DNA from: Ignavibacteriales bacterium
GTDB taxonomy: Bacteria > Bacteroidota > Ignavibacteria > Ignavibacteriales > Ignavibacteriaceae
Assembly (NCBI GenBank): GCA_003141435.1
Contig: PLLW01000083.1
Coordinates: forward strand, 1-33,882
Reading direction: 5' to 3'
DNA length: 33,882 nucleotides
Below, in pieces: positions 6,711-32,394 of this stretch. The position numbers and the translations under genes are program-made. Every line of letters begins with the position of its first letter. Within the stretch, counting starts at the first letter, position 1. Below the pieces are notes generated by a model that was given only the letters and a program-made list of their open reading frames with translations, was not told where the DNA came from and ran no database searches.

Positions 6711-6966
6711 GTCTTTATTTGGTTCGTACTTAACGGCATCCAATAATTTGCGTTAAGAAAATTTGTGGAATAGAGTGTCCTTATTTGGCTCATATTTAAC
6801 GGCCTTAAATATTTTGCGTTAAATAAATTCAGCGTAATGGAATGGCAGTGAGGGAAGCTGTTCGAACGTAGTGAGTTCTTCCCGAGCAATGGAATGGAGC
6901 TGAATTTATAGGAAAATATTTGAAGCCATATTTCTTTTGTTACTTTTCTTGTGCCAAGAAAAGTAA
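6711..6966 (+). repeat. Structured dispersed repeat, copy 1
   Basis: Fills the 319-nt gap between the [2Fe-2S] and Mo-subunit genes. The first part is a 66-nt module present twice (starting 6711 and 6777: GTCYTTATTTGG, then TTAACGGC and GCGTTAA). The core then forms nested stems: outer 6824-6833 TAAATTCAGC with 6899-6908 GCTGAATTTA, inner 6852-6857 GGGAAG with 6878-6883 CTTCCC. A terminal hairpin follows: TTACTTTTCTTG (6940-6951), loop TGC, CAAGAAAAGTAA (6955-6966). No coding function is apparent. The other two copies keep these stems with different bases (see findings). Confidence 0.85.
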
Positions 6967-9346: not shown

Positions 9347-9629
9347 GTCCTTATTTGGTTTTAGCTTGGTTCTTATATTGTATTAGTTTGGATCGTATTT
9401 AAATGGCCTCAATTAAAATACGTTAAATAAATTTACTGTAATGTAGCGCCAGTGGGAAATGCTGTTTGAGTCCGAAGGACGAGTTCATTTACCACAGCGG
9501 AGTGAAAGTAAATTTATAGTATTTTAATTGCAGCCAAAGTTCTTTGGGTACTTTTCTTCTAAAGAAAAGTACGAATAGAAATTTTAAGCCATATTTCTTT
9601 TGGTTCTTTTCTTGTGCCAAGAAAAGAAC
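9347..9629 (+). repeat. Structured dispersed repeat, copy 2 (left island border)
   Basis: Same family and orientation as the copy at 6711-6966. The outer stem is 9428-9437 TAAATTTACT with 9507-9516 AGTAAATTTA. The inner stem is 9452-9461 GTGGGAAATG with 9486-9495 CATTTACCAC (one mismatch). The apical hairpin is GTCC-GAA-GGAC (9470-9480). Two terminal hairpins follow: GTACTTTTCTT-CTA-AAGAAAAGTAC (9548-9572) and GTTCTTTTCTTG-TGC-CAAGAAAAGAAC (9603-9629). It fills the gap between the left-arm Mo subunit and the first island gene, so it marks the island's left edge. The terminal hairpins could act as bidirectional terminators, but there is no clear U tract. Confidence 0.85.
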
Positions 9630-9638
9630 AGTAATAGT

Positions 9639-11488: not shown

Positions 11489-12172
11489 ATGGCACGCTTA
11501 TTAACTCAGATCCTCGGTGTAATGTCCGGCTCCGTCGGCGATATCGTTTTCCATCGTAGAGGTGGTAAAAGCTATGTATCCGCCAAACCAAGCGGTTATA
11601 CGCCAAGGCTCGATGCAGCATCCGTTGCACGTAAAAAACAGTTCAAGACTGCTGTAGAAATAGCCAAGAACATAAATGATCTACCTATTCTAAAAGCAGT
11701 CTGGCCTGTCGATTCCACAAAACAGCTGTCCAAATTCCAAAAAATGGTCAGTGTTAACTATAAACTCGTAAGCGGAGAGGACCTTACAGGTCAGCCTACT
11801 CTTACACCTGATTTCGGCTTTGAAATGACAACCCCTGCAGTTGCTCTTACCGCCGACTCAGTCACTTTCTCAGCCGGTCAGCTTGGTGTTAATCTCGGCA
11901 TCAATACCTCTATCGAAAAGTTCTATTCCGTAGCTGGTATTCTGGTAATGAAAAATCCCACCGATTTGTTATCAAAAGACATCACCGTCATCAAATTAAT
12001 AACAAATCAAGCTAACCTCGATCTCATAACCGATATCAGTGTTACCATACCACTGTCTGGTATCGATCAGCAGTTCCTTGCAAAATACACAGTTAAAAGA
12101 GCATTCCTTGCTTTCTTAACACTTGACGACAATGGTAACGTTGTCAAACATTCTGCAACCTACGGTTCCTAA
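11489..12172 (+). CDS. DUF6266-like conserved hypothetical protein
   Basis: Protein of 227 aa. Its N-terminus (QILGVMSGSVGDIVFHRRGG, then KSYVSAKPSGYTPR, then ARKKQF) follows the pattern of a Bacteroidota family in which a Gly/Ser-rich 'SGxVGxxV' start is followed by 'GKxYxRxxP' and a basic 'RxxF' helix (DUF6266-like). The rest is beta-rich with no catalytic motif. No signal peptide. AAGGAG lies about 10 nt upstream and a strong intrinsic terminator follows, so it is probably its own transcription unit. The function is unknown; a virion or surface structural role is possible but not shown. Confidence 0.65.
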   Translation: MARLLTQILGVMSGSVGDIVFHRRGGKSYVSAKPSGYTPRLDAASVARKKQFKTAVEIAKNINDLPILKAVWPVDSTKQLSKFQKMVSVNYKLVSGEDLTGQPTLTPDFGFEMTTPAVALTADSVTFSAGQLGVNLGINTSIEKFYSVAGILVMKNPTDLLSKDITVIKLITNQANLDLITDISVTIPLSGIDQQFLAKYTVKRAFLAFLTLDDNGNVVKHSATYGS

Positions 12173-12223: not shown

Positions 12224-12763
12224 ATGGCTGAAAATAAATATGACTCTTTGTTTGTGAGATATGGAAATGAATTTCATATCGATCCTTTGCTTTTAAAAGC
12301 GCAAGTAAAACAGGAGAGTAACTTTAATCCCAACGCATTTAATAAAATTTCGGGCGCCAAGGGATTGGCGCAGTTTATGGACAAGACGTGGGAAGAATGG
12401 TGCGATATTACTCCTGGTATTCAAAGGGAAGTAAATAAATATGATCCCTTTAACCCAGCCCAGGCAATACATGCACAATCAGCGTATATGCATTTCCTTG
12501 TCAAACTAATCGATCAAAAACTCGCCCAAACCCTAACCGATAAAGATTACCTCTATCACTGGGCATTAGCCGCATACAACTGGGGGATAGGCAACATCCT
12601 AAAAATGCTGTCATTCTCGCGAAGGCGGGAATCTCATGACCAATATTATAACTATGAATTTGCTGAAAAATATCTTCCTAAAGAAACCGCAAACTATGTT
12701 CAGAAGATAATGAAATACTATTGCGAATATCAGCAAGAGGAATACGAAAATGCAAAAAAATAA
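12224..12763 (+). CDS. Lytic transglycosylase (SLT domain)
   Basis: Soluble lytic transglycosylase domain that cleaves peptidoglycan glycan strands. Seen: the catalytic Glu in VKQESNFNP (about residues 27-36), GAKGLAQFMDKTW (about 44-56), and HWALAAYNWGIGN (about 108-120), the three canonical SLT blocks. At 179 aa it is a minimal SLT domain with no signal peptide or membrane segment, as in phage endolysins. Between AYNWG and the C-terminal helix is SFSRRRES, encoded by a palindromic element (12610-12640) inserted in frame. AAAGG precedes the ATG. The next gene overlaps by 14 nt, suggesting a lysis-like pair or a conjugation/secretion role. Confidence 0.88.
   Translation: MAENKYDSLFVRYGNEFHIDPLLLKAQVKQESNFNPNAFNKISGAKGLAQFMDKTWEEWCDITPGIQREVNKYDPFNPAQAIHAQSAYMHFLVKLIDQKLAQTLTDKDYLYHWALAAYNWGIGNILKMLSFSRRRESHDQYYNYEFAEKYLPKETANYVQKIMKYYCEYQQEEYENAKK
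12610..12640. repeat. In-frame palindromic element 1
   Basis: GTCAT...ATGAC ends enclose the stem ATTCTCGC / GCGGGAAT (one G-T pair) around GAAG. It is a member of the GTCATTCCCGCGAA-type palindromes and lies inside the transglycosylase gene, adding about ten residues (SFSRRRESHD) to a loop after the conserved AYNWG block without breaking the frame. Confidence 0.85.
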
Positions 12764-13304
12764 TATACTTTGGTGGGCAATGGTAATTGCATTACTATTA
12801 GTCGGCTTCGTAACCGGTTGGTATTGTCATTCCCGTTCCTTTTTTAGTCATCCTCGCGAAAGCGGGGATCCCATAACTTTACACGACACTATAAAGTCCT
12901 ATTCAGTCCAATACAAAATTATCCCTGGCACTCAATACAACATCGATTCCCTGATAACCACCATAAACCAATACTGGAAAGATTCCTTAAAAAACATGTA
13001 CGGCAAAGGCTTATTCGAATCTAAGTTCTCAAAATCCGATGACCTCGGTTCTCGAACCTACACCCTTGCCAGCCGAATTCCCCTGGATCCCGAATCCCAA
13101 TTGACAGTCGACGAATCCTTTGTCTTTCCTAAAAAAACAATTGCTCTTGTCGGAAGCCTAGGTTATTCAGCTTCATTCGGATTAAAGTATTACATCCTTG
13201 ATACAAAACACTTTTCCTTTTCTGGTCTATTATCCGGTGATTATTTGTTAGATAAAAAGTTCTGGATTCCTAATGCTCGGTTAGAATTAGAATATAAGTA
13301 TTAA
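12750..13304 (+). CDS. Membrane-anchored hypothetical protein
   Basis: Protein of 184 aa with a short basic N-terminus and one membrane segment (about residues 6-24, LWWAMVIALLLVGFVTGWY), then an extracytoplasmic region rich in Tyr, Ser and beta strands ending NARLELEYKY. The residues just after the membrane segment (CHSRSFFSHPRESGDP) come from palindromic elements inserted in frame. I do not recognise the family. The overlap with the transglycosylase gene and the membrane-anchor layout resemble an Rz-like spanin or a porin-like beta protein; neither is proven. The next gene starts 17 nt later. Confidence 0.65.
   Translation: MQKNNILWWAMVIALLLVGFVTGWYCHSRSFFSHPRESGDPITLHDTIKSYSVQYKIIPGTQYNIDSLITTINQYWKDSLKNMYGKGLFESKFSKSDDLGSRTYTLASRIPLDPESQLTVDESFVFPKKTIALVGSLGYSASFGLKYYILDTKHFSFSGLLSGDYLLDKKFWIPNARLELEYKY
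12826..12877. repeat. In-frame palindromic element 2 (partial + full copy)
   Basis: A partial copy GTCATTCCCG (12826-12835) is followed by a full copy at 12847-12877 (stem ATCCTCGC / GCGGGGAT with one G-T pair around GAAA, then CCCATAAC). It is translated as CHSRSFFSHPRESGDP inside the membrane-anchored protein. Confidence 0.8.
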
Positions 13305-13321
13305 TAATAAAGGTTATAAAT

Positions 13322-14287
13322 ATGGCAGTATATAGGCAAATACAAACAACATATTGGCAGGACGAATTCGTTTTGAATTTAACGCCTGAAGAAAAATATT
13401 TTTACCTCTTTCTACTTACTAACAGTAAAACAAAACAATGTGGAATCTATCAATTGCCTGTGCAAGTTATAGTTTTCGAAACCGGCTACAACCAGGAGAC
13501 GGTGGAAAAACTTCTCAAACGTTTCATTGACTATGGTAAAATAATCTACAGCCTCAAAACCAGGGAAATAGGCATAATTAATTGGCCAAAATATAACCCT
13601 ATGGAATCCCCCAAAACAAAAGCCTGTGTCACCAAAGAGCTAAAAGAAGTAAAAGATAAAACCCTTATCGACAGAATATACCCCATACAAGGGGTATCGC
13701 AAAAAGAACAAGAAGAAGAAAAAGAAAAAGAAAAAACAGCAGCAGAAGAAAAAGAGCCCCCTTCGGCACCTGCTGCTGCTCCTTCTTCCTTTCTTCCAGA
13801 CCAAACCCCCGGTCATTCCCGCGAAACATCTTGTCATTCCTTCGAAAAATCTTGTCATTCCCGCGAAGGCGGGAATCTCATAACCACTGTCGATGAAAAA
13901 GATGACTACGATTACAATTGCCAAAGCATAAATGATCAATCCATTATGCTTTTTACCCGGCTATGGAACAAACCCAACACAAATCCTGAAGAATATCGTC
14001 TTGTTTCAGAATATATAACGGTATATGGATTTAAGGAAGTCGAATTCGCCTTCCGGGAAGCGGTAAAAAATAACATTAAAAAACTTGCATATGTGGAAGC
14101 TATTTGCAAAAGACGCAAAGAAAAAATAGTAATCGAAAAATCAAAAGAAGAAGCCCATCAAAAGAAACTTGAGCAGGATAAACTCCTCTTATCCCAGCGT
14201 GAAGCCTGGTCAAAACTAAACCTCTTCGAACTTGCCTGTTCCAAAACCCCTGACAAATTATCGGTTCAAGAAATAGGCTCAGGTTAA
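13322..14287 (+). CDS. DnaD/phage replication-like protein
   Basis: Protein of 321 aa. The N-terminus (about 1-95) looks like a winged-helix domain: YRQIQTTYWQDEFVLNLTPE, then TKQCGIYQLPVQVIVFETGY, then a helix with LLKRFIDYGKI and IINWPKYN, the layout of phage replisome organisers and DnaD-like initiators. A Glu/Lys-rich and Ala/Pro-rich low-complexity linker follows (about 120-160), then palindrome-encoded repeats (GHSRETSCHSFEKSCHSREG). A C-terminal helical domain (about 205-265, LFTRLWNK through YVEAICKRRKEK) resembles the DnaD C-terminal region. Likely a replication protein of a former phage or plasmid; it may also regulate transcription. 17 nt after the previous gene. Confidence 0.65.
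   Translation: MAVYRQIQTTYWQDEFVLNLTPEEKYFYLFLLTNSKTKQCGIYQLPVQVIVFETGYNQETVEKLLKRFIDYGKIIYSLKTREIGIINWPKYNPMESPKTKACVTKELKEVKDKTLIDRIYPIQGVSQKEQEEEKEKEKTAAEEKEPPSAPAAAPSSFLPDQTPGHSRETSCHSFEKSCHSREGGNLITTVDEKDDYDYNCQSINDQSIMLFTRLWNKPNTNPEEYRLVSEYITVYGFKEVEFAFREAVKNNIKKLAYVEAICKRRKEKIVIEKSKEEAHQKKLEQDKLLLSQREAWSKLNLFELACSKTPDKLSVQEIGSG
13812..13884. repeat. In-frame palindromic element 3, tandem 21-nt array
   Basis: Three GTCATTCC starts at 13812, 13833 and 13854 are spaced exactly 21 nt apart; the last is a full palindrome (ATTCCCGC-GAAG-GCGGGAAT). The 21-nt period keeps the frame and gives three 7-residue repeats (CHSxExx). It lies in the linker of the DnaD-like protein. Confidence 0.85.
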
Positions 14288-14590: not shown

Positions 14591-16465
14591 ATGGGAAAAT
14601 TAGAACAATTTGATCTTCTTAGATCAAAAGCGGTTGCGTTACTAAATGAACTTGCGGACCAGTGTTTAGAAAATGATAATATAACATCCCTCAAAGAAGG
14701 TGTTAATGATGCTGTCACTAAAATTAAGTCTGACAAATTCTTAGTTGCTGTAGTTGGTGTCATTAAGCGAGGTAAGTCCACTCTCTTAAATGCTTTATTG
14801 AAAGCTGATGTTGAAATACTTTCTACACAGGTAACTCCAGAAACAGCCCGACTAGCGTTCTTGTATTATGATGATAAACCCCATGCAATCATATACACTA
14901 AGGACAGCAAACAAATTAACATTGATATTGGTGAGTTATCTGAATATACATCCGCCTATAATACGGTAAGTCCCAAAGGGAAAAAAGCCAAAGTTGAAAA
15001 CACTCTTTATGCTGAGATATTCTATCCGAATGGTATACTCCAAAAAGGATTCTGCATTATTGATACTCCCGGAGTAGAGGACCCAGATCAGGAACGATCT
15101 GATGTTACGCTTAATTTTATTGATCAAGCAGATGCAGTAATATTTTTAATTGATCCTACCGAGGGAGGGCTTAAAGAGAGTGAATTAAAATTTATTAAAA
15201 ACAAAATTTTGACTAACAATGGGACAGAAAAAGGAATTATTTTTGTTGCTAATAAAGTTGGAGCCTTAAGAATTCATCAATTTCCAGAACTTCCAAAATT
15301 ACTGGCCAATAAAAAGGAGGACATAAAGAAAATATTTAATATAGATGTAAAGTTTTATCCAATTGATTCATATTACGAGGTTTGCAGAATTAGAGAAGGG
15401 CACAATAGTAGTCAAGAGAATGATAGGACCTACATTCAGAATATAAATCAAAAATTAGTTAAACTTAATTTGCCACCAGATTATTTTAAAGATTTGTTTG
15501 AGGAATTTAAAAATGACCTTGAATTATATCTGGTAAAAGAAAAAGGCAAATTGTTTTTGAAACGACGGATAAGTACTTTTTTAACTGAACAGTTGAATCC
15601 ATTGATTGATGAATTAAAAGAAAAAAGCAGCTATGAGCCCAAATCTATCGTTGATCTTGAAATAAAAATAAAAGATGCAGAAAAGCAGCTCGAAATTCTA
15701 AAAAGAAAATCGGAACAAATTCTTGACAAATTTAATAACAATAAAAATTCTTTACATACATATATTCAGCAGAAAACTACAACCGAATTTAATAATAACA
15801 TTACAATAAACCCTGGAACCATAGATCACTTGTCGGCGGATACTGTTGAGATAACAAAAAACTTATCAAAGCAGATATCAAAAAAAACACAAAATTTCAT
15901 TAATGAACTTATAGATGTGCTCGAAGAGGAAAATATTAAAATAGAAAGACCAAATTTTGATATCCGGGTGAAAAGTATAGATACCGCAAAATATTTTACA
16001 AAAAAGCAGGAAGTTGTTCAAGGGAACAATGACGGTGATTTTATTGGGGCTGCAATAGGTGGTTTTTTGGGCTTTATTGTGGGCGGTCCTTTGGGGGCTG
16101 CTTCAGGAGCCGCTGCCGGGAGACGGGTCGGTAAAGGATTCAATTCAGATAATAAAATGATTGAGAATGTTACATTTGATGAAATTGGACTAAGAAAAGA
16201 AATAGATAATACCCGACAAATGCTTATACATAATTACCAAGCCTCATTGGACTATTATTACAATTCAGTCGAAGAAACGGTGGATAAAATACTTAACACA
16301 AAAAAGAAGAGCATTACAGATTACTATTCAGCACAGAAAAAAAATCTAAAAAATGAAAAATTTAGCTTCTCACAGTACAGGGATGAAATTAATTCAATTG
16401 TTGATAAACTGAATAAAAATAACAATTTATTTACTCAACTGCTCAATGAGGTAGAAACACTATGA
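14591..16465 (+). CDS. Dynamin-like GTPase 1
   Basis: Large GTPase of the bacterial dynamin-like superfamily, 624 aa. Seen: a helical lead (1-48), P-loop GVIKRGKS (56-63), a conserved Thr region (TQVTPETAR), switch II DTPG (159-162), and NKVG at 222-225 where a canonical NKxD Asp is replaced by Gly. Long coiled-coil-prone helices follow (about 300-475). A glycine-zipper hydrophobic segment at about 480-513 (DFIGAAIGGFLGFIVGG, then AASGAAAG) could insert in or cross a membrane, and a final helical stalk completes it. The arrangement matches two-gene dynamin systems such as LeoA/LeoBC. Its stop overlaps the next GTPase by 4 nt, suggesting equimolar hetero-oligomers at the membrane. Confidence 0.85.
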   Translation: MGKLEQFDLLRSKAVALLNELADQCLENDNITSLKEGVNDAVTKIKSDKFLVAVVGVIKRGKSTLLNALLKADVEILSTQVTPETARLAFLYYDDKPHAIIYTKDSKQINIDIGELSEYTSAYNTVSPKGKKAKVENTLYAEIFYPNGILQKGFCIIDTPGVEDPDQERSDVTLNFIDQADAVIFLIDPTEGGLKESELKFIKNKILTNNGTEKGIIFVANKVGALRIHQFPELPKLLANKKEDIKKIFNIDVKFYPIDSYYEVCRIREGHNSSQENDRTYIQNINQKLVKLNLPPDYFKDLFEEFKNDLELYLVKEKGKLFLKRRISTFLTEQLNPLIDELKEKSSYEPKSIVDLEIKIKDAEKQLEILKRKSEQILDKFNNNKNSLHTYIQQKTTTEFNNNITINPGTIDHLSADTVEITKNLSKQISKKTQNFINELIDVLEEENIKIERPNFDIRVKSIDTAKYFTKKQEVVQGNNDGDFIGAAIGGFLGFIVGGPLGAASGAAAGRRVGKGFNSDNKMIENVTFDEIGLRKEIDNTRQMLIHNYQASLDYYYNSVEETVDKILNTKKKSITDYYSAQKKNLKNEKFSFSQYRDEINSIVDKLNKNNNLFTQLLNEVETL

Positions 16466-18210
16466 ACATTCTCGACATTCGTAAAGAGTTATCCATAAAA
16501 ACCAACAAACTTGAGGGTATTACAAAGAATCTGAATCTACAACTAAATAATTATGATTTTCTAACCAGGGTTATGAACAAGACTACATTTGATATTGCAG
16601 TAGTCGGTGAATTCACATCCGGTAAATCGACTTTAATAAATGCTTTGCTTGGAATAGACCTGCTCCCGACTAAACTTGAACCCACTACGGCTAGAATTAC
16701 TTATATCGCTTATTCAGAAAGTCCTGAGATAATATTAATTATGAAGAATGGTGAAAGAAAAACTCATTCTTTTGAGGTATCATTTTTAAAATCCTTAATT
16801 GCCGAGAACAGAAATCTTTTAAGTGAGATTGAATATATAGAAGTGTTTTTAGACAATCCTTTGTTAAAAAACAGTATTCGAATTATTGATACACCCGGGA
16901 CAAACGATACAGATGAGCAAAGGGTAGCCATTACCTATGGACTTTTACCAGAAGCTGATGCTGTAATCTATGTTACTATTCATCCTGTTACTTCATCTAA
17001 TGTACAGGTATTTAAGGAACATATCCTGGGGAATAAAATAAAAAACATTTTTTTCGTATTGAATAAAATTGATCTGCTTGGTGAAAATACCGAATTGGCT
17101 GTAAAAGATGCTTTAAATTGGTTTAGGGAAAATACAAATGATGAGATAAATTCTTTTTATTCTGTTTCGGCTATTGACTGCCTTGAAGGCACTATAGATG
17201 ACGACAAGGAATTAGTTGATAAAAGTAAATTTAAGATATTTGCTGATGCATTATATAAATTTATAGAAAGTTCGGATAAATATGATAATCTTCAAATTCA
17301 GTACAATGCAGTTTTTCAAAAAATTAAATCACAAATTATAGAGATAATAAGGTTAAAAGCCGGCGGTCTTTCAATTCCTGAGGAGAGTTTTCAACAACGG
17401 AAAAATGATCTGAAAAACGATCTAAAATTATTTAAGGAACAAACCCATGAACTTGAAAATCAGATAGAACAGGAATTTGACTCTCTTATTTATAAAATTG
17501 AAGAATCATTAAATAACTTATTAAATGCATTATTGGAAACAACCAATGAAATAGTTTCGTCCGGGAGGAGTGATGTTAATCTTATGCTAAAAGATCTGGA
17601 GATGGAAATTAAATATAAATATGATGGTTGGCGCAATAATAACGAACCGTTAATTGAAGAATTTCTTAGAACGATACAAGAGGAAATTAGTATCAGGGTC
17701 GCAAAAGCAGTTCAAGATGTGCAATTTGCAGTAACTAAGTTTACCGATATGCGGTTATCAACTCAGATGCACAAACAGAATCAATCTCAGGTAGATACAA
17801 TATTGTCTGATGATTCTAAGTTCGGACTCTCATCAACAGGTGCGGTTGTTACCAGCATGATTGTAATACATTTCGTTGCAGCCGCCTTTGCCCCAATAGC
17901 ATTCTTGCTTTATCCATTATTTAATAATTATCGGAAAAAATGGCAGCAGCACCAAAGGGAACAATTAAAACCACAGATAGTTGCCTCCCTTCATGAAGGG
18001 TTTAGTAGCTTCAGAAAGGAAATCATAAAGAATATCAATTATCAAAAAGATTTAATTGACAAACAAATTGACCAGGCCCTCACCGCTCAAAACGAACAAA
18101 TCAATAAACAAATAGATGAAATTGAAAAAGAAAGACAAGAACAAAAAACCACTATAGAACAAAAAATTAGTGAGTATAACGCAGCTGTAGTGAGTATAGG
18201 AGAAATATAA
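16462..18210 (+). CDS. Dynamin-like GTPase 2
   Basis: Second dynamin-family GTPase, 582 aa. Seen: helical lead, P-loop GEFTSGKS (49-56), TKLEPTTARIT switch I, DTPG (143-146), and a canonical NKID (201-204). A long helical region follows (about 290-440) with Glu/Lys heptads, then a hydrophobic pair at about 455-490 (STGAVVTSMIVIHFVAAAF, then PIAFLLYPLF) like a membrane-binding paddle, and a C-terminal coiled coil (IDKQIDQALTAQNEQINKQI). It overlaps GTPase 1 by 4 nt and ends 1 nt before the J-domain gene. Because its nucleotide-specificity motif is intact while that of GTPase 1 is not, it may be the more conventional GTPase of the pair. Alone, it could be read as a generic dynamin; the tandem context suggests a LeoBC-type partner. 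Confidence 0.87.
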   Translation: MNILDIRKELSIKTNKLEGITKNLNLQLNNYDFLTRVMNKTTFDIAVVGEFTSGKSTLINALLGIDLLPTKLEPTTARITYIAYSESPEIILIMKNGERKTHSFEVSFLKSLIAENRNLLSEIEYIEVFLDNPLLKNSIRIIDTPGTNDTDEQRVAITYGLLPEADAVIYVTIHPVTSSNVQVFKEHILGNKIKNIFFVLNKIDLLGENTELAVKDALNWFRENTNDEINSFYSVSAIDCLEGTIDDDKELVDKSKFKIFADALYKFIESSDKYDNLQIQYNAVFQKIKSQIIEIIRLKAGGLSIPEESFQQRKNDLKNDLKLFKEQTHELENQIEQEFDSLIYKIEESLNNLLNALLETTNEIVSSGRSDVNLMLKDLEMEIKYKYDGWRNNNEPLIEEFLRTIQEEISIRVAKAVQDVQFAVTKFTDMRLSTQMHKQNQSQVDTILSDDSKFGLSSTGAVVTSMIVIHFVAAAFAPIAFLLYPLFNNYRKKWQQHQREQLKPQIVASLHEGFSSFRKEIIKNINYQKDLIDKQIDQALTAQNEQINKQIDEIEKERQEQKTTIEQKISEYNAAVVSIGEI

Positions 18211-18211
18211 A

Positions 18212-19009
18212 ATGGACTCAAAGGATATTATTCTTAACATTTTCGATTCAGCCGATAAAATGCTACTCAATAAACAGCCCCAGAATGCTTTTTTTGAGTA
18301 TGAGCAGGTTTTTCCGCTTCTTTCATCACTTAACCTAAAAGGACGTCGCGCTGATTCACTTGGCAGTTTTGCTGGTTGGACCGCAGGATTTCTTACAGGC
18401 GGGCTTGGTTTAGAAGATTTGATAATTATACCTCTCGTATCCAGAGGAGTTTCTCAGGCACTAGGGAGTAATTCGCAATACATTTATGAAGTACTCTCGA
18501 TGGTTTTATTGCGGCAAATAAATTGTATCCTTGATTCTGAGAGTTTAAGAAAAAATTTAGATAAAGACAGGGTGTTCCAAAAATTCGCATTACTAATTTC
18601 TTCCACAAAGAATAAAACCCTTTTTAAGAAATACTGTAAAAATTTCTTCCCTGATGTCTTTTCTGATAACTCACTTGATAATAGTGATGTGAATTATACT
18701 CCATATTATTTCCTTTTGGAAGAAGCTAATAATATTTCTTATCAAAATTCGGAATTATTCTCTTTGCTCTTTTCATATTTGACTCTAACTAATGATACCT
18801 CGGAATTATTCAGAAAACTTGAAACTAATTTTGGGCGGAAAGATTACCAACAAGACAAAAGAAAAGATAATTCAAAGAACCATCAAACCAATTCTCGGCA
18901 AACTTACAAAGAGAGCCCTAATGATTATTATGAAATTCTCGGAGTGAAAAGAGGAGCGACAAAAGAAGAAATAAAGCAAGCTTATCATGAAAAAATACCA
19001 TCCGGATAA
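18212..19009 (+). CDS. J-domain protein, J domain cut before HPD
   Basis: Protein of 265 aa. The N-terminal 200 residues are helical, with a Gly-rich hydrophobic stretch at about 50-85 (GSFAGWTAGFLTGGLGLEDL, then IIIPLVSRG), and are not a family I recognise. A Lys/Gln/Asn-rich linker follows (about 212-235), then the start of a J domain: NDYYEILGVKRGATKEEIKQ, AYHEK. The frame then ends IPSG-stop, just before the HPD motif, which is present in another frame as MKKYHPDKF (18987 onward). J domains stimulate Hsp70 (DnaK) ATPase and need HPD, so this product alone should not be active. Part of the dynamin operon: 1 nt after GTPase 2. Confidence 0.75.
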   Translation: MDSKDIILNIFDSADKMLLNKQPQNAFFEYEQVFPLLSSLNLKGRRADSLGSFAGWTAGFLTGGLGLEDLIIIPLVSRGVSQALGSNSQYIYEVLSMVLLRQINCILDSESLRKNLDKDRVFQKFALLISSTKNKTLFKKYCKNFFPDVFSDNSLDNSDVNYTPYYFLLEEANNISYQNSELFSLLFSYLTLTNDTSELFRKLETNFGRKDYQQDKRKDNSKNHQTNSRQTYKESPNDYYEILGVKRGATKEEIKQAYHEKIPSG

Positions 19010-19100
19010 ATTCGCTCACCTTTCAAAAGAATTTCAAGATTTAGCGAATAGAAAAGCACAACTTATTAACGAAGCTTATAATTATTTAAATAACGTTTAA
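18987..19100 (+). pseudogene. J-domain C-terminal half in shifted frame
   Basis: A 37-codon frame beginning ATG (18987) inside the previous gene, reading MKKYHPDKFAHLSKEF and ending KAQLINEAYNYLNNV. It contains the HPD motif and helices III-IV of the J domain that is started upstream. A canonical J domain has about six residues between AY and YHPDK; here the upstream frame supplies HEK and this frame MKK, so about 8 nt appear lost between short ATGAAA-like repeats. It is either a disabling deletion, a base-calling error near the A6 run (18990-18995), or a coupled two-piece J domain. 2 nt before the next gene. Confidence 0.7.
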
Positions 19101-19102
19101 TT

Positions 19103-21172
19103 ATGTCAAAAGAGATATTGCTATTAGGAGAATTCAGTACCGGTAAGTCAGCATTTATAAATATGCTTTTGGGGGTATCCATATTACCTGAGAAACTTGA
19201 GTCCACCGACATGCCGGTAATAAAAATTCATGGTGGTAGTCCAGCTGGTTTATGGTTAAGAGAGCCTGAGCAGAAGAATCCAAAAGCTTTGGACAATTTT
19301 TCTGATATACCCAAAGATTGGACTTTGTTTGAATATGCTGAAATTACTATTCCAACACATCCATTATTAAAAGAAGGACTCATATTTTGGGATACTCCAG
19401 GAAGAAATTCTACTAACCCCCATCATCAAAAGCATCTTGAAAATTTTCTTAGTAAGAAAAAGAAATTCCGCTATGTATACTATTTTGTTCACGGAACTAT
19501 AACCGAACCAAGTATTGAGTTTCTAAAAAAATACAGAAATTATTGGGATAATTTAGTAATTCTGGTGAATATAAAAGAAGAAAGACTGGAAGATGAATGC
19601 AGGCTGATGGAGAAAGAAGTTAAAAAAACAGTCAGAGTTCATTTGGGAAATATTCCTGTTGAACTGCTTTATATTGGCGATATGTGCGGGGAGTTTAATA
19701 CTCTGTCAGATCAAATGAAAGCTAACTTATCAGATTGGGAATTGCTAAAAGACTGGGATAAAAGAAGGATAGATTTTAAGAATCTTAAAGAAAAATATAG
19801 ATCGACAATAATTGGGGAAGAAAATATAGAGGTTATAGAACTACTTGGCCAAGAATCAGAGGTAGGATTTTCCCCTGAAGATATCGAATCAGTTATTAAA
19901 GCGGCAGAGTCTGGAAATGCTGAAGCTCAGTATTTGCTTGGGAATGCTTATCAGAAGGGTCAGGGGGTTAAGAAGGATTATAAATTAGCTGTTGAATGGT
20001 ACAATAAGTCAGCCGAGTTAGGAAATGCAAATGCTCAATATGAATTAGGTGATATGTACATAAACGGATTAGGAGTAATAGGAATTAAGCAAGATTATAA
20101 AAGAGCATTAGAATGGTTGACAAAATCAGCGGATCAAGGTAACGCAGAATCTCAACTTGCATTGGGAGTTATGTACCATTCTGGATTGGGAATAAAGCAA
20201 GATTATAAAAAAGCATTAGAGTGGTTTACAGAAGCAGCCGAGCAAGGTAACTCAGATGCTCAATCAGCATTGGGCATGATGTACGAGGATGGGTTAGGAG
20301 TAAGACAGGATTATAAATTAGCTGTTGAGTGGTACACAAAATCAGCCGAACAAGATAATTCAAGTGCTCAATTCTCGTTGGGCTTTATTTACGAAGAAGG
20401 AACAGGAGTAAAGCAAGATTATAAAAAAGCATTAGACTGGTTTACTAAATCTGCCGAAAAAAACGATGCGGCAGCTCAACATTCATTGGGGGCAATGTAC
20501 TATTATGGAGAAGGAGTAAGGCACGATTATAAAAAAGCATTAGAGTGGTTCTCAAAATCAGCCGAACAAGGTGATCCAAATGGCCAATATGGATTAGGGT
20601 TATTGTACGCTAATGGGGAAGGGATAAAACAGGATGACCTGAAAGCGATAGAGTGGTTTACCAAATCAGCCAAGCAAGGTAATTCAAATGCTCCATTACA
20701 ATTAGGGTTTATTTATTGGAATAAAGAAAGTCCACAGAATGATTATCGAAAAGCATTTGAGTGGTTATCTAATCCAGCCGAACAAGGTAACGCAGAAGCT
20801 CAATATGTATTGGGAAATTTGTACGATTATGGGTTAGGAGTTAAGAAGGATTACCAAAAAGCAATAGAATGGTACACTAAATCGGCCGAACAAGGTAATG
20901 CAGATGCCGAATATGCAATGGGGTTTATGTACCGTCTTGGGGAAGGAACACAGAAAGATAATCGGATAGCATTCGAGTGGATAAATAAATCTGCACAGCA
21001 TGAAAATGCAGAAGCCCAAGCTTTGATAGGTTTGTGTTATCAAAAAGGTGTTGGGGTTTCTATCAATGCAAATAAGGCGTTGTATTGGTATGAAAAAGCA
21101 GCGGCTCAAGGAAATGAAGACGCAGTAAAGTTATTAAGTGAGTTCAACAAGCAGCATGAATTAAAAAGGTAA
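19103..21172 (+). CDS. GTPase-Sel1 repeat fusion protein A
   Basis: Protein of 689 aa. Its P-loop lies at the extreme N-terminus (GEFSTGKS, 9-16), followed by ESTDMPVI, switch II WDTPG (96-100) and NIKE at 156-159 where NKxD is expected, so guanine specificity is uncertain. The NTPase region runs to about 250. From about 268 to the end are eleven 36-residue Sel1-like repeats (pattern NAEAQYxLGxxYxxGxGVKQDYKKALEWFTKSAEQG) plus a final half repeat; one repeat has a 3-residue insertion (VIG). Sel1 repeats form a superhelical protein-binding scaffold. No signal peptide, so cytoplasmic. The gene starts 2 nt after the split J domain and is followed by a paralogue. Function inferred as sensor or adaptor for the dynamin pair. 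Confidence 0.85.
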   Translation: MSKEILLLGEFSTGKSAFINMLLGVSILPEKLESTDMPVIKIHGGSPAGLWLREPEQKNPKALDNFSDIPKDWTLFEYAEITIPTHPLLKEGLIFWDTPGRNSTNPHHQKHLENFLSKKKKFRYVYYFVHGTITEPSIEFLKKYRNYWDNLVILVNIKEERLEDECRLMEKEVKKTVRVHLGNIPVELLYIGDMCGEFNTLSDQMKANLSDWELLKDWDKRRIDFKNLKEKYRSTIIGEENIEVIELLGQESEVGFSPEDIESVIKAAESGNAEAQYLLGNAYQKGQGVKKDYKLAVEWYNKSAELGNANAQYELGDMYINGLGVIGIKQDYKRALEWLTKSADQGNAESQLALGVMYHSGLGIKQDYKKALEWFTEAAEQGNSDAQSALGMMYEDGLGVRQDYKLAVEWYTKSAEQDNSSAQFSLGFIYEEGTGVKQDYKKALDWFTKSAEKNDAAAQHSLGAMYYYGEGVRHDYKKALEWFSKSAEQGDPNGQYGLGLLYANGEGIKQDDLKAIEWFTKSAKQGNSNAPLQLGFIYWNKESPQNDYRKAFEWLSNPAEQGNAEAQYVLGNLYDYGLGVKKDYQKAIEWYTKSAEQGNADAEYAMGFMYRLGEGTQKDNRIAFEWINKSAQHENAEAQALIGLCYQKGVGVSINANKALYWYEKAAAQGNEDAVKLLSEFNKQHELKR

Positions 21173-21214
21173 AGAAATATTTCACATTATTTACCTAATA
21201 AAAAAATATAATAA

Positions 21215-21250
21215 TTTAACAAAGCCTATAACGAACTAAGGTATATTTAA
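21215..21250 (+). pseudogene. Vestigial J-domain tail before second fusion gene
   Basis: In frame, FNKAYNELRYI-stop matches the J-domain end INEAYNYLNNV-stop that precedes the first fusion gene, and the DNA TTAACAAAGCCTATAA matches TTAACGAAGCTTATAA. An in-frame stop lies just upstream, so only about 11 codons survive. It ends 3 nt before the next ATG, as the first tail ends 2 nt before its ATG. It shows that the duplicated unit included the J-gene end. Confidence 0.6.
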
Positions 21251-21253
21251 ACT

Positions 21254-23926
21254 ATGTCAAAAGAAATATTACTTTTAGGTGAATTCAGCACAGGTAAGTC
21301 AGCATTTATAAACATGATTCTCGGTGTATCCATATTACCTGAAAGACTTGAATCGACCGATATGCCAATAATAAAAATTCATGGTGGAAGTCCTGCCGGT
21401 GTTTGGTTAAGAGAGCCAAATCAAAAGAATTTAAGAGGATTGGATAAGTTTTCTGAAATACCTAAAGATTGGACTTTGTTTGAATATGCTGAAATTACTA
21501 TTCCAACACATCCGCTATTAAAAGAAGGACTAATATTCTGGGATACACCAGGAATAAATTCTACTAATCCACAACATCAAAAGCATCTTGAAAATTATTT
21601 ACAAAATAACCATCGGAATTTTGCCATAATATATTACTTCCTCCACAGTAATGTAACTGCTACAAGTATAAATTTTCTAAAGAAATTAACTAAATATTTC
21701 AACAAACTAAATATTTTAATAAATATTAAAGAGGTTAAACCGGAGTTAGAGTGCCGGTTAATTGAAAAAGAAGTTAAAAAAGAGATTAAAACTCAAATAA
21801 GCAATATTCCAATTGATCTTCTTTATGTGGGGGATATTAATGAAGAATTTAACACGCTATCTGAAGATCGACGAAAAAACCTAACTGAATGGGAGCTTAT
21901 TAAGGATTGGGATAAAAGAAAAATTGATATTTCAGGATTAAGGAATAGATATAAAAACAACTTGATCGGTGATGAAATATTGGACGTCATAACCGAAATT
22001 GCTAATAAAAAAAATGTTGATGAAAATTATTATTATAAATTAGATATCGAAAATTTAAAAGTGTTAGCTGATAGTGGCGACCCTAAGGCTCAATATGTGT
22101 TATCAATAAGATATTCTTTAGTAGAGGGTTATTTCAATATAGCATTTGATTATCTCAAGTTAGCCGCGAACAATGGATCCGGTGAAGCTCAATATGATCT
22201 GTCTACACATTATAAAACTGGTTTAATATGTGAAACTAATAATGAGCTTTATATACAATATCTCCAGATGGCTGTTATAAATAATGAACCTGAAGCAATT
22301 GCAGAACAATATTTTGAAGGAATAAATACATTAAAAAACCCCGAGGTTGGATTTTCAATATTAAAAAATGCAGTTGATAATGGAAATTACTCTATATATT
22401 CTAGCCTTGCAGAATGCTATAAGGAGGGCAAAGGTATTGAAAAAGATTTAATAAAAGCTGAATATCATTATCGAAGTAGCGTGGAATTTGAAAATCAAAT
22501 ATTTCCAATCTCTTTAATAAGTTTTCTTTTAGAGCACCCAGATAAAATTAAGTTAAATGAAGGTGTAGATTTATTGTTAAAATATTCAAGAGAAAATTTC
22601 TTTTTTGCTAAGTTACTTCTAGCCCTATATTACCGCGATAATCCGGATAATAATAATGTGAATAAAGTCTTTAGCTTATTGTCGCCATTTGAAGGAAGAA
22701 ATTATTGGGCAGATTTTATATTAGCGAACTGTTATGGAGAAGGACAGGGAGTTGCAAAAAACGAAAACAAAAAATTTCAACTATTAAAAAATATTTATGA
22801 TGAAGGTTTCACAATTGGTATAAACGCTTTAGCAGAATGTTACAGTCAAGGCTGCGGCATTAAGAAAAACGATCAAGAGGCTATTCGGCTTTATAAAATA
22901 TCATCAGAAAAAGGGAACTTAGATGCCAAGTATATATTAGCAAGCAAGTTGACAAATTATGAAGGTAGCTTTGAAGAGGGCATGCGTCTTTATAAGGAAC
23001 TGGCAGATTTAAATATTCCAAATGCTCTAATCGATCTTGGAGTTATATTATCGGAATCTAACCCAAAAGAGGCGTTAAAATATTTGTTAAGAGTAGCTGA
23101 CTCAAATAATTCCACAGTCCACTATTTACTCGGTAAGATATATTTAGAAGATGATGAATTAGACACTAATAAACAAAAAGCGTTTGGTCTTCTAACAAAA
23201 GCGGCAAATCAAGGAGTAAGTGATGCTCAACATATGCTAGGACTGTGTTTCTTAAATGGTTGGGGTATAAAAAAAAATCAAGATAAAGCATTTGAATGGA
23301 TTAAAAAAGCAACCGAACAAGATCTCGTAATAGCGCAATGTAGTATGGGTTATTTATATTTGAAAGGTATAGGGACTAAAGAAAATTTATCTGAGTGTAT
23401 CAAATGGTATAAAAAAGCCTCCGAACAAGGTCATCATATTGCTCAGTATTACCTTGCGACATTTTACTTAAACGGAGATGTAGTAAATAAAAATGAGCAA
23501 GAAGCTTTTAGACTTTTCAAACTTAGCGCCGAGCAAGATGATTATGACGCTCAAAACATGTTGGGAAGGTTCTATTCTGAAGGTTGGGGCGTATATAAAG
23601 ATGATAAAGCAGCATTTAAATATTTTGAGTCGGCTGCTGATCACGGAAATATGATTGCACAATTTAATTTAGCCGAAAGATACTTTAATGGCACGGGATG
23701 CTCAAAGGATTTAACTTTAGCATTTAAATATTTTATGGCTTCCGCTGAGCAAGGATATTCTGACTCACAGTATTGCTTGGGATATATTTATGAAAATGGA
23801 TTAGGAGTTATTTCTGATGTCAATCAAGCATGGTTTTGGTATGAAAAAGCCGCAGATCAAGGAAACGAGAATGCTATAAATGCAATAAACGAATTAAACC
23901 GTCAAATTAATGGAGTTAGGAGGTAG
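21254..23926 (+). CDS. GTPase-Sel1 repeat fusion protein B
   Basis: Paralogue of the preceding gene, 890 aa. The N-terminal 115 or so residues are nearly identical (P-loop GEFSTGKS 9-16, ESTDMPII, WDTPG 96-100), again with NIKE instead of NKxD. Similarity falls after about residue 118. The C-terminal two thirds (about 265-890) are degenerate Sel1-like repeats, clearest toward the end (for example SDAQHMLGLCFLNGWGIKKN and HIAQYYLATFYLNGD); the middle repeats are strongly diverged and variable in length. This suggests conserved nucleotide-binding machinery with a diversified recognition scaffold. Cytoplasmic. It ends 2 nt before a strong-SD small gene. Confidence 0.85.
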   Translation: MSKEILLLGEFSTGKSAFINMILGVSILPERLESTDMPIIKIHGGSPAGVWLREPNQKNLRGLDKFSEIPKDWTLFEYAEITIPTHPLLKEGLIFWDTPGINSTNPQHQKHLENYLQNNHRNFAIIYYFLHSNVTATSINFLKKLTKYFNKLNILINIKEVKPELECRLIEKEVKKEIKTQISNIPIDLLYVGDINEEFNTLSEDRRKNLTEWELIKDWDKRKIDISGLRNRYKNNLIGDEILDVITEIANKKNVDENYYYKLDIENLKVLADSGDPKAQYVLSIRYSLVEGYFNIAFDYLKLAANNGSGEAQYDLSTHYKTGLICETNNELYIQYLQMAVINNEPEAIAEQYFEGINTLKNPEVGFSILKNAVDNGNYSIYSSLAECYKEGKGIEKDLIKAEYHYRSSVEFENQIFPISLISFLLEHPDKIKLNEGVDLLLKYSRENFFFAKLLLALYYRDNPDNNNVNKVFSLLSPFEGRNYWADFILANCYGEGQGVAKNENKKFQLLKNIYDEGFTIGINALAECYSQGCGIKKNDQEAIRLYKISSEKGNLDAKYILASKLTNYEGSFEEGMRLYKELADLNIPNALIDLGVILSESNPKEALKYLLRVADSNNSTVHYLLGKIYLEDDELDTNKQKAFGLLTKAANQGVSDAQHMLGLCFLNGWGIKKNQDKAFEWIKKATEQDLVIAQCSMGYLYLKGIGTKENLSECIKWYKKASEQGHHIAQYYLATFYLNGDVVNKNEQEAFRLFKLSAEQDDYDAQNMLGRFYSEGWGVYKDDKAAFKYFESAADHGNMIAQFNLAERYFNGTGCSKDLTLAFKYFMASAEQGYSDSQYCLGYIYENGLGVISDVNQAWFWYEKAADQGNENAINAINELNRQINGVRR

Positions 23927-25890: not shown

Positions 25891-26266
25891 TATTATTTGG
25901 TTCGTATTAAACTGAATTAAATATTTTGCATCATATAAAATCAGCGGAATGGAATATCCTTATTTGGTTTTGGCTTGGTTCTTATATTGTATTAGTTTGG
26001 CTCGTATTTACGACCTTAAATAAAATGCGTAAAGAAAATTTATGTAATGGAGTAAATAGCGGGAAATGCTGTTTGTTCTTATTTGGCTCATATTTAACGG
26101 CATCAAATAATTTGCGTTTAGAAAATTTATGTAGCGTAACGTTAAGCGAAGAATTCTGTTTGAGCCGCAGGCGAGTTAATTCTTCGCAGTGGAGCGTAAT
26201 AAATTTTTAGCGGAATTATTTGTAGCCGTGTTTCTTTTGGTACTTTTCTTGCGACAAGAAAAGTAC
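25891..26266 (+). repeat. Structured dispersed repeat, copy 3 (right island border)
   Basis: Same family and orientation as the copies at 6711 and 9347. It is composite: a truncated unit ending GCGGGAAATGCTGTTTG (about 26059-26075) runs directly into a complete one. Complete core: outer stem 26122-26130 AAAATTTAT with 26199-26207 ATAAATTTT; inner stem 26146-26155 GCGAAGAATT with 26178-26187 AATTCTTCGC (perfect); apical GCC-GCA-GGC (26164-26172). Terminal hairpin GTACTTTTCTTG-CGA-CAAGAAAAGTAC (26240-26266). It lies 12 nt before the stop of the - strand ThiF gene and could terminate transcription from both sides. Confidence 0.85.
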
Positions 26267-31383: not shown

Positions 31384-32394
31384 TTACATTGTTAAGCCCA
31401 TAACTGCTTTAGCAGTATGGAGTCTGTTTTCAGCTTCATCAAACACAATTGAAATATCAGGGTTATCAAGTATCTCATTTGTAACTTCATTTCCTCTGTC
31501 AGCTGGTAATGCATGCATAAGTTTTACTCTCTTATCTGCAAGCTTAATTCTCTTGTCATTACAGATCCAGCTCTTGTATTTACTAAGGTTAGATTTCATT
31601 TCCTTCTTGCATTCGTCTTCATTCTGTAAATAATGGTCTACATCATATGCACCAAAGCCGCCCCAGTTCTTGGGAATTACAATCTGAGCTCCTTCAAAAG
31701 CTTCGTCCATATTATTGGTAAACTTAAGTGATCCACCTCCTTCTTTTGCATTCTTTTGGGCTTTATCAATAATGTTCTTGCTTAATGGAAATTCCTTAGG
31801 ATGTGCAACTGTAACATCAATTCCATATCTTGGGAAAAGTAGAATTTGTGTCTGTGGAACTGATAAAGGCTTGCTGTGTGTATCTGCATATGCCCATGAT
31901 ACTGTTACTTTCAATCCTTTGGGGTTCTTATCGAAGTGCTCAAATATTGTCATAAGATCTGCAAGTCCCTGCATAGGATGATAAATATCATCCTGCAATG
32001 ACATTACCGGAACTGTAGCATTTGCAGCCATCTCTTCTAAGTATTTATTTCCTACACCATAAAAACAATTTCTGCATGCAATTCCATGTCCCATTCTTGA
32101 TAGAATAATTGCAGTATCCTTTGGTGCCTCTCCATGCGAAATCTGCATCTTATCTGCAGTTAGATCATGCGCATGCCCGCCAAGCTGTGTCATTCCCGCT
32201 TCCATCGAGTTACGTGTTCTGGTCGACTGCTCGAAAAAGATCATAAAAAGAGTTTTATCCCTTAATAATCTATGGGGTTCCCCTAATGCAAATTTCTTCT
32301 TAAGATCGAATGCCACTTCGAATACTGTATCAAGTTCCTGCTTTGTCCAGGAATCCTCAGTTATAAAGTTTTTTTTGAAAAGATCAGAAACCAT
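31384..32394 (-). CDS. ygeW: YgeW knotted carbamoyltransferase
   Basis: Aspartate/ornithine-carbamoyltransferase-fold enzyme, 336 aa. Seen: the carbamoyl-phosphate loop STRTR (57-61) in EQSTRTRNSMEAGMTQLG, SHGEAPKDTAIILSRMGHGI, and HALPADRGNEV near the C-terminus, features of the YgeW family. E. coli YgeW has no ornithine or aspartate activity; in purine/urate-use clusters it is proposed to act on ureido compounds derived from ring opening, giving carbamoyl phosphate for ATP synthesis. It starts 79 nt after ygeY and belongs to the same operon. A carbamate kinase (arcC-like) would be expected elsewhere. Confidence 0.92.
   Translation of the reverse strand: MVSDLFKKNFITEDSWTKQELDTVFEVAFDLKKKFALGEPHRLLRDKTLFMIFFEQSTRTRNSMEAGMTQLGGHAHDLTADKMQISHGEAPKDTAIILSRMGHGIACRNCFYGVGNKYLEEMAANATVPVMSLQDDIYHPMQGLADLMTIFEHFDKNPKGLKVTVSWAYADTHSKPLSVPQTQILLFPRYGIDVTVAHPKEFPLSKNIIDKAQKNAKEGGGSLKFTNNMDEAFEGAQIVIPKNWGGFGAYDVDHYLQNEDECKKEMKSNLSKYKSWICNDKRIKLADKRVKLMHALPADRGNEVTNEILDNPDISIVFDEAENRLHTAKAVMGLTM

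Follow-up and report, generated by a model that had tools for sequence, protein, structure and literature searches.

In-frame REP-type palindromes in three successive phage-type genes of an Ignavibacteriales genome

Three successive phage-type genes of an Ignavibacteriales bacterium each contain one GTCATTCCCGCGAAGGCGGGAATC-type hairpin that is read through in frame (at 12610, 12847 and 13854 of the window, by which we mean the whole stretch of 33,882 nucleotides analysed here; Table 1). Its stem and loop make the element a CGTC-1-type REP, although tag and tail deviate. It belongs to a repeat family found at unrelated loci, it is present in frame in genes under purifying selection, and two of the three genes have paralogues that lack it. 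We consider it very likely (probability roughly 0.85) that CGTC-1-type REP copies entered insertion-tolerant stretches of a phage-derived cassette, where the three palindromes would remain because copies that keep the frame are nearly harmless.

The palindromes and their host genes

All three palindromes lie where the original prediction had placed them, each within one of three consecutive genes and each leaving the frame open. Allowing up to one mismatch, GTCATTCCCGCG occurs five times in the window, where shuffles give an expectation of 0.05, and three of the five fall within 12610-13884; the copy in the membrane-protein gene, two mismatches away from GTCATTCCCGCG, is additional to those five and was found by a wider pattern. 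Every copy in the genome has a stem of 8 pairs, 7 or 8 of them Watson-Crick, closed by a 4-nt loop (8/8).

Table 1. Coordinates of the palindromes, their half-units and the genes that surround them in the window
Feature	Position	Strand	Remarks
Cassette gene upstream of the transglycosylase	11489..12172	+	Also in the C31 cassette (81% identity); matches no family; carries no element
Transglycosylase gene with SLT domain, of phage-endolysin type; carries copy 1	12224..12763	+	Pfam SLT 1.7e-15; PHROG endolysin 1.3e-27
REP copy 1	12610..12641	+	TGTC tag, ATTCTCGC-GAAG-GCGGGAAT, tail CTCATGACC; C31 paralogue without element
Gene for a small membrane-anchored protein; carries copy 2	12750..13304	+	No family match
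Direct left half-unit with spacer	12826..12846	+	21 nt before copy 2; also present at the paralogous C31 site
REP copy 2	12847..12877	+	ATCCTCGC-GAAA-GCGGGGAT; C31 paralogue carries a copy at the same site
Gene for a DnaD-like helicase loader / replisome organizer; carries copy 3	13322..14287	+	PHROG replisome organizer 1.2e-48; DnaD-like helicase loader 9.4e-37
Left half-unit 1 of 21-nt tandem	13812..13832	+	In the DnaD-like gene; repeat family D13
Left half-unit 2 of 21-nt tandem	13833..13853	+	In the DnaD-like gene
REP copy 3	13854..13885	+	Perfect 8-bp stem, tail CTCATAACC; residues missing from the C43 paralogue

Copy 2 directly follows, on the 3' side, the likely transmembrane segment of the membrane protein (a segment read by eye from the sequence), and copy 3 is placed in a low-complexity linker that joins the N- and C-terminal parts of the DnaD-like protein. 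The stretches entered would have been a variable loop of the transglycosylase, the region after a likely transmembrane helix and the linker of a helicase loader. The same gene order recurs on contig C31, which makes this a repeated, phage-derived cassette; the C31 paralogue of the membrane gene (C31:1995-2564) is 82% identical. Scans for the upstream cassette protein in genome contigs and viral contigs, and for the membrane protein in viral contigs, found none.

Several other features of the window were recorded. A 54-nt direct repeat (9348-9401 and 25957-26010, 96% identical) flanks the cassette and the genes after it, and its two copies are possibly the ends of a genomic island. Palindromic repeats of the TTTCTTTTG-CTTTTCTTG-CAAGAAAAG type recur at 6933-6965, 9536-9631 and 26233-26265, and also directly precede a DnaD-like gene at the start of each of the contigs C43 and C58 (L047, L050). 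Within 14591-23926 lie four genes for dynamin-like GTPases, two with fused Sel1 repeats, and between them a DnaJ-domain gene; the closest named organisms for a conserved protein encoded at 31387-32394 (minus strand) are Ignavibacteria (89%).

Distribution and class of the repeat

A search with the 24-nt palindrome at up to 3 mismatches found eight copies in the 3.08-Mb genome and none of the reversed control. The genome-wide count proposed in the original prediction came out even: four copies are genic, in the three window genes and in the C31 paralogue of the membrane gene, and four are intergenic (C4:4647, C8:38228, C9:90495 and C84:4712), as judged by open reading frames and not by annotation; when the membrane site is counted once, three of seven sites are genic. 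The prediction had also depended on the element recurring elsewhere in the genome, and five of the eight copies are indeed outside the three window genes.

With half of the copies residing in two small paralogous cassettes, the elements might have arrived with the cassette from another host and transposed little here, and the one other genome of the genus that was searched has no match at up to 2 mismatches. The other four copies, however, occupy unrelated intergenic sites, and an exact GCGGGAATCTCATAACC tail occurs three times here but is absent from the 163 remaining genomes of the order (164 in all), so that no donor is visible. We regard such an import as unlikely.

Our comparison with published CGTC repeats draws on Di Nocera et al. 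(2013; PMC3733652). The CGTC-1 definition given there, an 8-bp stem starting AT with a 4-nt loop, fits 8/8 copies. The published tag is an unpaired CGTC, often TGTC or CCTC, at one end; here it is NGTC in seven of eight copies (TGTC in 2, AGTC in 2, GGTC in 3) and TGTT in the eighth, with no CGTC. The tail is CTCATAACC or near it and not the CCA of CGTC-1, though in that account most members, not all, fit CCA. Head-to-head dimers are described there as predominant among CGTC REPs and head-to-tail dimers as negligible; none of the eight copies has an inverted partner within 100 nt. The same paper places Neisseria dRS3 and R. conorii RPE-6 in the CGTC-1 family, equates RPE-4 with CGTC-4, records CGTC repeats in five phyla, Chlorobi and Bacteroidetes among them, as well as genic copies in several species, and has no transposase found for CGTC REPs.

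The element therefore shares with CGTC-1/dRS3 the 8-bp stem beginning AT, the 4-nt loop, a GTC before the stem, an identical core in other phyla and copies that in relatives are mainly intergenic, but differs in the first base of its tag (T, A or G), in its tail, in the lack of inverted dimers among its eight copies and in the direct half-units, spaced 20-21 nt, that five of the eight carry. Rickettsia RPE-6 and RPE-4, compared through Di Nocera et al., are likewise short in-frame palindromes within functional-looking genes and belong to the same superfamily, whereas here the copies are few and half of them belong to a single phage-like cassette or to its paralogue. The predicted likeness to Rickettsia palindromic elements is thus right in kind, by class, the CGTC-1 stem and loop being those of RPE-6. 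GTAG REPs and REPINs with RAYT transposases are also small hairpin REPs with an unpaired tag, but here the tag is GTC rather than GTAG and no Y1 transposase lies near the element in the loci examined.

Beyond this genome, the palindrome is present at up to 2 mismatches in 56 of 116 genomes (this one and its relatives; controls 0). One relative, G031, has 199 matches at that threshold; among the matches listed, many are paired in inverted orientation at a distance of some 50 nt, and several stand at contig ends. Identical cores of 24-26 nt occur in Azospirillum, in Sphingobium and in a 2.17-Mb record labelled Neisseria gonorrhoeae in a plasmid collection. A single one of 50,697 phage records matches, and the 32-nt form of this genome has no exact match in viral contigs.

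A REP-associated transposase, which the original prediction had suggested looking for, was not found adjoining the element in the loci examined. Y1_Tnp has two matches in this genome and is present in 104 of the 116 genomes searched, yet none of the 30 Y1_Tnp loci examined (from 43 matches across 10 genomes) had the palindrome in the flanks fetched, which reached up to 1.5 kb on each side; the presence of the family is uninformative, and we do not propose a link on that basis.

Element-free paralogues and encoded peptides

Element-free homologues were available for two of the three genes. The DnaD-like paralogue on contig C43, 84% identical, lacks 32 residues that hold the whole array, and the C31 transglycosylase paralogue, 73% identical, has unrelated residues in place of the element. 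Neither has the peptides, let alone the peptides without the DNA palindrome, a finding that would have spoken against the original prediction. The transglycosylase site was considered as a simple insertion and this was rejected, the paralogue's loop being 6 nt longer than that of the window gene and loop length varying among 8 homologues; from these alignments the site looks replaced and not simply inserted. There was no credible homologue of the membrane protein in the other 163 genomes of the order; its only match outside the genome (G119, E 0.003) runs antisense to an SRP54-type gene, as read by eye, and was set aside as spurious.

Outside the elements, dN/dS is 0.09 for the transglycosylase (against the C31 paralogue, loop masked), 0.17 for the membrane gene (against the C31 paralogue, element masked) and 0.09 for the DnaD-like gene (against C43, insert masked), and the host genes therefore evolve as working proteins. 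The DnaD-like gene is accordingly a gene under selection with an in-frame element that its homologue lacks; the transglycosylase element is also missing from a paralogue, but as a replacement.

It could be argued that the hairpins are kept for a role in the operon mRNA, in stability, pausing or attenuation, and that the peptides are by-products. The four genic copies fold at -12 to -15.6 kcal/mol (z -2.8 to -4.0), and at the membrane site the peptides of the window and C31 copies differ while all 8 pairs are kept, one T-A pair having become C-G by a double change and one pair being G-T. That stem difference could equally reflect two subtypes, however, since the ATCCCCGC type exists at C84, and the C31 transglycosylase and the C43 DnaD-like gene lack the hairpin though both genes are under purifying selection. 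We think an mRNA role improbable.

The transglycosylase copy encodes LSFSRRRESHD, the membrane-protein copy SHPRESGDPIT and the DnaD-like array GHSRETS-CHSFEKS-CHSREGGNLIT. The last bears out the predicted 7-residue tandem from starts 21 nt apart. The prediction that all three genes encode similar peptides held in part: HPRESGDP and CHSREGGNL are read in a common phase, and the transglycosylase copy (SFSRRRES) is read in another. In the DnaD-like array the third sense phase would run into a TAA in the element's own tail. As different phases are used, no particular peptide seems to be needed.

All three phases are used in a relative, G078, in which one 1356-codon gene of the MmeI/Eco57I restriction-modification type (L202 1149-5219; G078:C92) holds three REP copies in three different reading frames. 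Aligned with four plasmid-borne homologues, copies 1 and 2 fall at gaps in 4/4 and copy 3 in a stretch of variable length. The gene is a natural test that the peptides are not selected, and we conclude that the encoded peptides are probably not what is selected. An adaptive role of the peptides, such as that of flexible or basic linkers, by which they would keep the DNA repeat in place is very improbable: the copies do lie in linkers and variable loops and their residues are polar and basic, but the phases give peptides as unrelated as SFSRRRES and CHSREGGN, and the paralogues do without them.

Half-units around genic copies

Direct half-units accompany many copies in this genome (at 20-21 nt in 5/8), although one was looked for upstream of the transglycosylase copy and not found. 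The half-unit and spacer of the DnaD-like array are shared with C9 (shuffle p 0.0005) and those of C31 with C4 (0/2000 shuffles), in 28 pairs compared, and such sharing between unrelated loci suggests that the copied units were longer than the bare palindrome. Genome-wide, half-units at 2 mismatches gave 23 matches against 12 for the control, so that weak half-units cannot be counted on that scale.

For a wider view we took a census of 145 distinct copies (8 from this genome, 137 from relatives), drawn from stretches around the listed places and thus a subset of all matches. A copy was called genic when inside an open frame of 110 codons or more that extended at least 15 codons to either side of it; ten of the 145 qualified (4/8 here, 6/137 in relatives), all in the orientation of the gene, although three of them (L069, L334, L344) are near an ORF start and may fall outside the true gene. 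At one of these (L344 ~1440-1580; G091:C135) three directly oriented hairpins at spacings of 54 and 39 nt, of which the third differs in its stem, were observed near the beginning of a small ORF.

An inverted partner within 60 nt downstream was found for 74 of the 135 other copies versus one of the ten genic copies (Fisher 0.007), and a direct half-unit upstream for 7/10 genic versus 7/135 other copies (Fisher 1.6e-6); with only the seven safer genic copies, the direct half-unit was present in 6/7 versus 8/138. In this genome alone the difference disappears (3/4 genic versus 2/4 intergenic copies, p = 1), and the half-units at two of the four intergenic copies mean that the association may follow the genome and not the coding context. 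The association is therefore weakened, as the sample is small and confounded by genome identity.

Half-unit offsets at genic copies are all multiples of 3 (upstream 21, 21, 21, 42, 30, 33, 42 and 54; downstream 36 and 39), the ten copies being not all independent, since the membrane site contributes two of them and, in the DnaD-like gene, the offset of 42 contains one of 21; at other copies, multiples of 3 account for 4/8 upstream and 2/5 downstream offsets. It is a tentative and rather doubtful idea that genic REPs evolve unlike intergenic ones, forming, in place of inverted dimers, direct in-phase half-unit arrays by frame-constrained duplication and deletion at the hairpin, with the REP as the seed of in-frame linker repeats. 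The in-phase pattern is the one lead that deserves a proper census.

Under our preferred reading, entry into tolerant stretches of the cassette, the copies would have been made by hairpin-dependent single-strand copying, by a trans-acting transposase or by replication slippage. Frame-breaking insertions would have been purged, and once a copy had inserted, in-frame duplication or deletion at its hairpin may have produced the tandem half-units. We also note that GTCATCTCATAACC at C31:2418-2431 (L046), 5 nt after a full copy, corresponds to the ends of the element joined without the hairpin. It is the sole exact copy in the genome (at 2 mismatches there are 19 in total, close to the 13 of the control). 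As a scar of hairpin loss it is a lead only, and an 18-nt tandem duplication is an alternative source.

The phenomenon itself is known, REP palindromes being tolerated in coding genes as in Rickettsia. No account of such genic palindromes in Ignavibacteria appeared among the open-access papers listed by our literature searches, and the present copies widen the range of coding REP palindromes to take in Ignavibacteria as well as phage-derived genes. Should a larger sample confirm the phase pattern of the half-units, hairpin repeats would be one way in which bacterial proteins gain new in-frame linkers.
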